Below are positions 28,911 to 29,021 of a stretch of DNA of 39,241 nt, piece after piece. Positions within the stretch are counted from its first letter, which is position 1; every line of letters starts with the position of its first letter. The position numbers and the translations under genes are program-made. Under the pieces are notes generated by a model. That model did not search any database and had not been told where the DNA came from. It was given only the letters and a program-made list of their open reading frames with translations. Origin of the DNA: Zoogloeaceae bacterium (GTDB lineage Bacteria; Pseudomonadota; Gammaproteobacteria; Burkholderiales; Rhodocyclaceae); contig JAISRR010000085.1 in NCBI GenBank assembly GCA_031273565.1, forward strand, positions 1 to 39,241, written 5' to 3'.

Positions 28911-28955
28911 GGTAGGGTGGGTTCAGGTAGGACGGGTTCAGGTAGGACGGGTTCA
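28911..28955 (+). repeat. 15-bp tandem repeat x3 (GGTAGGGTGGGTTCA, GGTAGGACGGGTTCA x2)
   Basis: Exact 15-nt period read directly; continues into the GGTAG of the adjacent BIME. Confidence 0.95.
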
Positions 28956-29021
28956 GGTAGGGCGCGCTCTCCGAGCGCGCCGCATGTCAACAACGGCGCT
29001 TTCGGAGAAAGCGCCCTACCT
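28955..29021 (+). repeat. REP/BIME-like element
   Basis: AGGTAG-GGCGCGCT-CTCCG-AGCGCGCC-GCATGTCAACAAC-GGCGCTTT-CGGAG-AAAGCGCC-CTACCT; both 8-bp stems perfect. Confidence 0.9.

Follow-up and report, generated by a model that had tools for sequence, protein, structure and literature searches.

REPs are generally portrayed as repeats of narrow host range that are associated with a vertically inherited RAYT. The BIMEs of E. coli contain two REP types, Y and Z, in inverted orientation within mosaic arrays. The GTAG REP superfamily comprises 24 families, including families of Opitutus terrae, and head-to-head heterodimeric GTAG dimers have been described (Di Nocera 2013, PMC3733652). The group 3 TnpA-REP proteins of S. 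maltophilia and Marinomonas depend critically on the sequence of the loop, and GTAG has a role in cleavage and in the choice of strand (PMC8266576). In strains without a RAYT, the cognate REPs are about ten times fewer (PMC2817692).

The window analysed here is the whole 39,241-nucleotide stretch of DNA. The inverted hairpins at 28955-29021, the sequence of which is exactly as written in the preliminary description, most probably represent a RAYT-mobilised GTAG REP heterodimer (BIME/REPIN), non-autonomous, horizontally acquired and now probably without a transposase of its own. Four exact hairpins were found in the window, for which shuffles expect 0.00. The features are as follows.

28955..29021, no strand: REP heterodimer (BIME/REPIN), two inverted hairpins with the GTAG feet outward
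28957..28981, plus strand: arm 1 of the first element, GTAG-GGCGCGCT-CTCCG-AGCGCGCC
28982..28994, plus strand: spacer of the first element, 13 nt, GCATGTCAACAAC
28995..29019, minus strand: arm 2 of the first element, GTAG-GGCGCTTT-CTCCG-AAAGCGCC
28911..28961, plus strand: tandem array leading into arm 1, 3.4 x 15-nt units GGTAGGACGGGTTCA (TRF)
28875..28912, plus strand: flanking module of the first element, GAGACTGCTGATAAACCGTCCTGTCTCCGCCGATTTGG, beside 8/50 elements
27552..27618, no strand: second REP heterodimer, orientation opposite to the first element
27554..27578, plus strand: arm 2 of the second element
27592..27616, minus strand: arm 1 of the second element
27630..27667, minus strand: flanking module of the second element, CAGACGGCTGACGAACCGCCCTGTCCCCGCCGATTTGG
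27456..27508, minus strand: module on the far side of the second element, with an imperfect inverted copy of the module start at its end, CTTGTCAGCAATC
27509..27533, plus strand: third, degenerate hairpin of the second element, GCAGGGCGGCATCTACGATAGCGCC
8797..8821, minus strand: degenerate REP, GTAGGGGGTGCGCTCCGAGCGCGCC, with a decayed partner near 8761-8784
89..113, minus strand: degenerate REP with a CTTCG loop, then CTTGTATTATGAACTG, as at several other sites

An unpaired GTAG is present at one end of the short palindrome, as in the GTAG REP superfamily. Two DUF805 paralogues lie in tandem at 27694-28767 and 29029-30276, and each is followed by a REP pair, the two pairs in opposite orientations.

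A search of the 2.88 Mb draft genome (216 contigs) with the pattern GTAGGGCG..CTCCG..CGCC returned 85+84 = 169 exact copies and none for the reversed-pattern control, which supports the GTAG REP/BIME reading of the preliminary description and shows a high copy number. The copies are dispersed over many contigs, and 55 of the 60 placeable sites are intergenic according to a rough gene call. From flanks sampled at about 80 sites, 50 inverted pairs were extracted. These pairs are polar: the variable stem of arm 1 is mostly CGC, CTT or CGT, while arm 2 mostly carries CTT or GTT, or is of a CTACG-/CTTCG-loop type with an imperfect stem. The spacer GCAKGTYAACRAC is 13 nt long in 34 pairs. Extra tandem GTAG-footed units of 13-16 nt, one to four in number, stand outside arm 1 in 30 elements; outside arm 2 they occur in 7 elements, and in shuffled flanks the figure is 1.8%. 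The 15-nt repeat at 28911-28961, with a GTAG foot in every unit, is an example from the window. The arm-1-side repeats are built from the 5' half of the REP (foot and left stem). In the window (27456-27667) and at L012, L014, L023 and L041, the hairpins lie inside composites some 200-260 bp long, the inverted ends of which (CAGACTGCTGACAAA/TTTGTCAGCAATCTG) are imperfect. At L025 (about 1501-1570), one hairpin of the source genome is partnered with GTAGGGACGGCTCTCCGAGCCGTCC, the arm type common in Opitutae.

As single-stranded DNA, 28955-29021 folds best into a single 67-nt hairpin in which the two arms are joined (-28.8 kcal/mol, z -6.8). The two separate hairpins of the preliminary description are not the lowest-energy single-strand fold. 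With 9-bp stems they reach -23.0 kcal/mol versus -20.2 kcal/mol for the 8-bp form, and a 9-bp stem closed by a 3-nt loop is the better description of each hairpin. The loops are indeed complementary, as was claimed, but this is not a separate feature, since it follows from the inverted arrangement of the arms. Over 29 pairs, the long hairpin is on average 7.5 kcal/mol more stable than the two arms folded separately, and an arm 2 perfectly complementary to arm 1 would raise this advantage to 21.0 kcal/mol; the differences between the arms weaken the 67-nt hairpin. Identical stems within a pair were observed in 2 of 87 cases from four genomes versus 19.9 expected under random pairing, a bias whose P value overstates independence because the copies share ancestry. 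All four genomes, including an Acidobacteria MAG, show the bias individually. Removal of long palindromes by SbcCD-type enzymes has been put forward in the literature as the explanation (PMC3733652), and the strong avoidance of identical arms supports this purging suggestion in two phyla.

Stem covariation was evaluated on 62 distinct 25-mers, obtained by pattern matching from genomes of several phyla. They include 19 fully Watson-Crick, compensated stems, and standard pairing was 90.3% versus 68.5% after shuffling, in agreement with the earlier claim that stems change while pairing is kept. The covariation score was 0.495 versus 0.147 for shuffled sets, and sliding the partner strand destroyed the signal (all slid frames <=0.108). 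Foot, loop and the outer two pairs were fixed by the search pattern and are therefore not evidence of conservation. Within one genome, the stem changes mostly reflect a few founder types (CGC, CTT, GTT, CGT), each present in many copies. Different stems are found in other genomes, such as CCCGT/ACGGG and CCGGC/GCCGG in an Acidobacteria genome (G316) and CGGGT/ACCCG and ACGGC/GCCGT in Opitutae. The covariation is real, with its strong support coming from the between-genome comparison. Full pairing of every stem in the window was claimed too broadly: the hairpin at 27592 has GGCGTGTT/AACGCGCC with a T-G pair.

Within the genus, 3 of 21 genomes carry the element (169, 142 and 35 copies). In the family sample, G161 was the only other genome with a real pair, and none of 290 other members of the class sample gave a palindromic match. 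A scan of 85,488 species genomes, for which a stricter stem was used, gave betaproteobacterial matches in Zoogloeaceae Rs511_bin19 (G017 by its coordinates), Betaproteobacteria MS502-89 (G005 by its coordinates), MS502-56, MS502-43 and Accumulibacter Kf353; other phyla were represented by Verrucomicrobia/Opitutae, Lentisphaerae and Acidobacteria, with single matches elsewhere. A looser foot and loop pattern yielded 200 copies in G316, 153 in G017, 144 in Accumulibacter (G317), 109 in a Lentisphaerae genome (G314), 43 in G312 and 12 in G308. Single copies in MAGs may represent mis-binned contigs, and mis-binning is unlikely to explain the high-count genomes. The isolate names of some carrier MAGs point to a termite-gut origin. 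No match to the element was found in plasmid or phage collections. The distribution is wide, patchy and across phyla.

Two resident RAYT genes were identified (C30 and C159; NF047646, 88 and 80 bits). A RAYT flanked by the same element had been anticipated, but both resident genes carry a different inverted repeat on each side: they are flanked by, and contain in frame, GGGAGCGCGGGGC....GCCCCGC inverted pairs. No GTAGGG hairpin was found near either gene, and none of the sampled element copies of the source genome lies near a RAYT. Searches of the carrier genomes with PF01797, NF047646 and two home-made profiles (A1 and A3) detected no RAYT adjoining the element, and no HUH-motif ORF was present within the sampled element flanks. 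An element-flanked RAYT was found in none of G000, G005, G017, G161, MS502-56 (G323) and Accumulibacter Kf353 (G317), although more than 140 element copies are present in each of G000, G017 and G317. All assemblies are drafts in which REP-flanked genes are likely to fall into gaps, so that a missing RAYT is not proof. An in-frame inverted pair, seemingly of the RAYT's own REP family, lies inside the coding sequences of two different RAYT types; it occurs in the source genome (L031:1192-1908 and L032:1192-1917) and in congeners (L090, L097, L099 and L339). In the left flanks of L050, L055, L062, L071 and L084, REP pairs directly adjoin copies of the GGGAGC...GCTCCC repeat that flanks the resident RAYTs, so that mosaics of the two families are formed.

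TCTCCGA-loop REPs on both sides were found for a single RAYT, L277 (95.8 bits) of the Acidobacteria MAG Ga0077522. Its flanking hairpins read GTAGGGCC..TCTCCGA..GGCC, and the genome holds 200 copies, which links the loop type to a RAYT, in agreement with the prediction from group 3 TnpA-REP biochemistry (PMC8266576). Beside the other RAYTs of the genus lie either GTAGGGGCG hairpins whose loops differ or non-GTAG hairpins. Opitutae RAYTs with flanking GTAG hairpins each have their own loop, and the loops beside the other fetched RAYTs with flanking GTAG hairpins also differ from TCTCCGA. As candidate cognates, the GTAGGGGCG-type RAYTs of G003, G017 and MS502-56 were rejected, their flanking hairpins having different loops and an extra G. 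L230 of Verrucomicrobia was likewise rejected as the REPtron of the TCTCCGA-loop family, with mainly GTAGGGCGCGATGTCCC hairpins and a single TCTCCGA REP.

In the proposed mechanism, each arm would fold into a hairpin as single-stranded DNA and be recognised by a RAYT (TnpA-REP, Y1 HUH transposase) via the GTAG foot and the TCTCCGA loop region, for which the stem would need only to be paired. During replication, the RAYT would cut the hairpin pair and copy it to new sites, most of them intergenic; no event of excision or insertion was seen. A TCTCCGA-type RAYT presumably spread the copies in the lineage of the source genome, which the TCTCCGA-loop family probably reached by horizontal transfer. 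The cognate RAYT may since have been lost, be missing from the assembly or have been replaced in trans by another RAYT. The roughly tenfold reduction of REPs in RAYT-less strains (PMC2817692), set beside many copies with no element-flanked RAYT, counts against this explanation. It is doubtful that the REP family crossed phyla, amplified to more than 140 copies in several betaproteobacterial genomes (G000, G017, Accumulibacter Kf353) and persists there or spreads without its cognate RAYT by means of a RAYT of other specificity in trans or another enzyme.

The hairpins could alternatively lie inside a larger MITE-like composite with imperfect terminal inverted repeats (CAGACTGCTGACAAA ... TTTGTCAGCAATCTG), mobilised in trans by a DDE-type IS transposase. 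Several elements, among them the two of the window, have the modules at their flanks, and paired module ends enclose 199-259 bp. However, the left module was present beside only 8 and the right module beside only 3 of the 50 elements, the others being flanked differently, and the examined flanks of hairpins from other phyla do not contain these modules. The combination of terminal inverted repeats and a target-site duplication that marks a MITE was not found, as no duplication was visible in the examples with both module ends, and this origin is considered improbable. Retention for a role at the RNA level, as a terminator or a 3'-end mRNA stabiliser, would fit the position of the window copies 7-80 nt past stop codons and the mostly downstream location of REPs in other species (PMC3733652). 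A T-tract (intrinsic) terminator was called at neither element, though, and the element had no match in Rfam. The sites relative to genes (27 co-directional, 15 divergent and 13 convergent, by a crude gene caller) gave no clear 3'-end bias, making such a role quite improbable.

The preliminary description had opposed a local duplication with few copies to a mobile family. Each window element does adjoin one of the two 41% identical DUF805 paralogues, with which the window copies could have arisen. The two elements have opposite orientations beside these tandem genes and different stems, however, and with 169 copies genome-wide a local duplication is rejected, with practically negligible probability. 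The RAYT-mobilised heterodimer is the preferred explanation. One foot and one loop combined with freely changing stems in several phyla provide a natural test of RAYT recognition, and what becomes of REPs once their RAYT is lost can be tested directly in REP-rich genomes that have no cognate RAYT. The points to follow up are the wide, patchy cross-phylum spread and the high copy numbers where the cognate RAYT was not found.

The element is a new GTAG REP/REPIN member of an ordinary kind, compared with published families by description and not matched to a numbered family. It shares with the GTAG REP superfamily (PMC3733652) the GTAG foot, complementary changes in a stem of 6-9 bp, dimers arranged head to head, a preference for heterodimers, high copy number and intergenic location. 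It differs in the tandem foot repeats on one side, and no matching REPtron was found in the source genome. Like REPINs (Bertels and Rainey 2011, PMC3116915), it consists of two inverted REPs around a conserved spacer and folds, as a single strand, into one long hairpin, but the arms are of different stem type and the cognate RAYT was not found. With the BIMEs of E. coli it has in common two inverted REP types within mosaic arrays. In contrast to these BIMEs, the stems are short and perfect, without the group 2 bulge, and the arms differ in stem and not in loop length. Thauera sp. MZ1T, also of the Zoogloeaceae, likewise has many GTAG REPs in its genome, and these have been linked to the horizontal acquisition of a RAYT (PMC2817692, PMC3733652). 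There, a Pseudomonas-like RAYT lies beside the REPs, whereas no cognate RAYT was found here, and the REP type described here is also present in Verrucomicrobiota and Acidobacteria.
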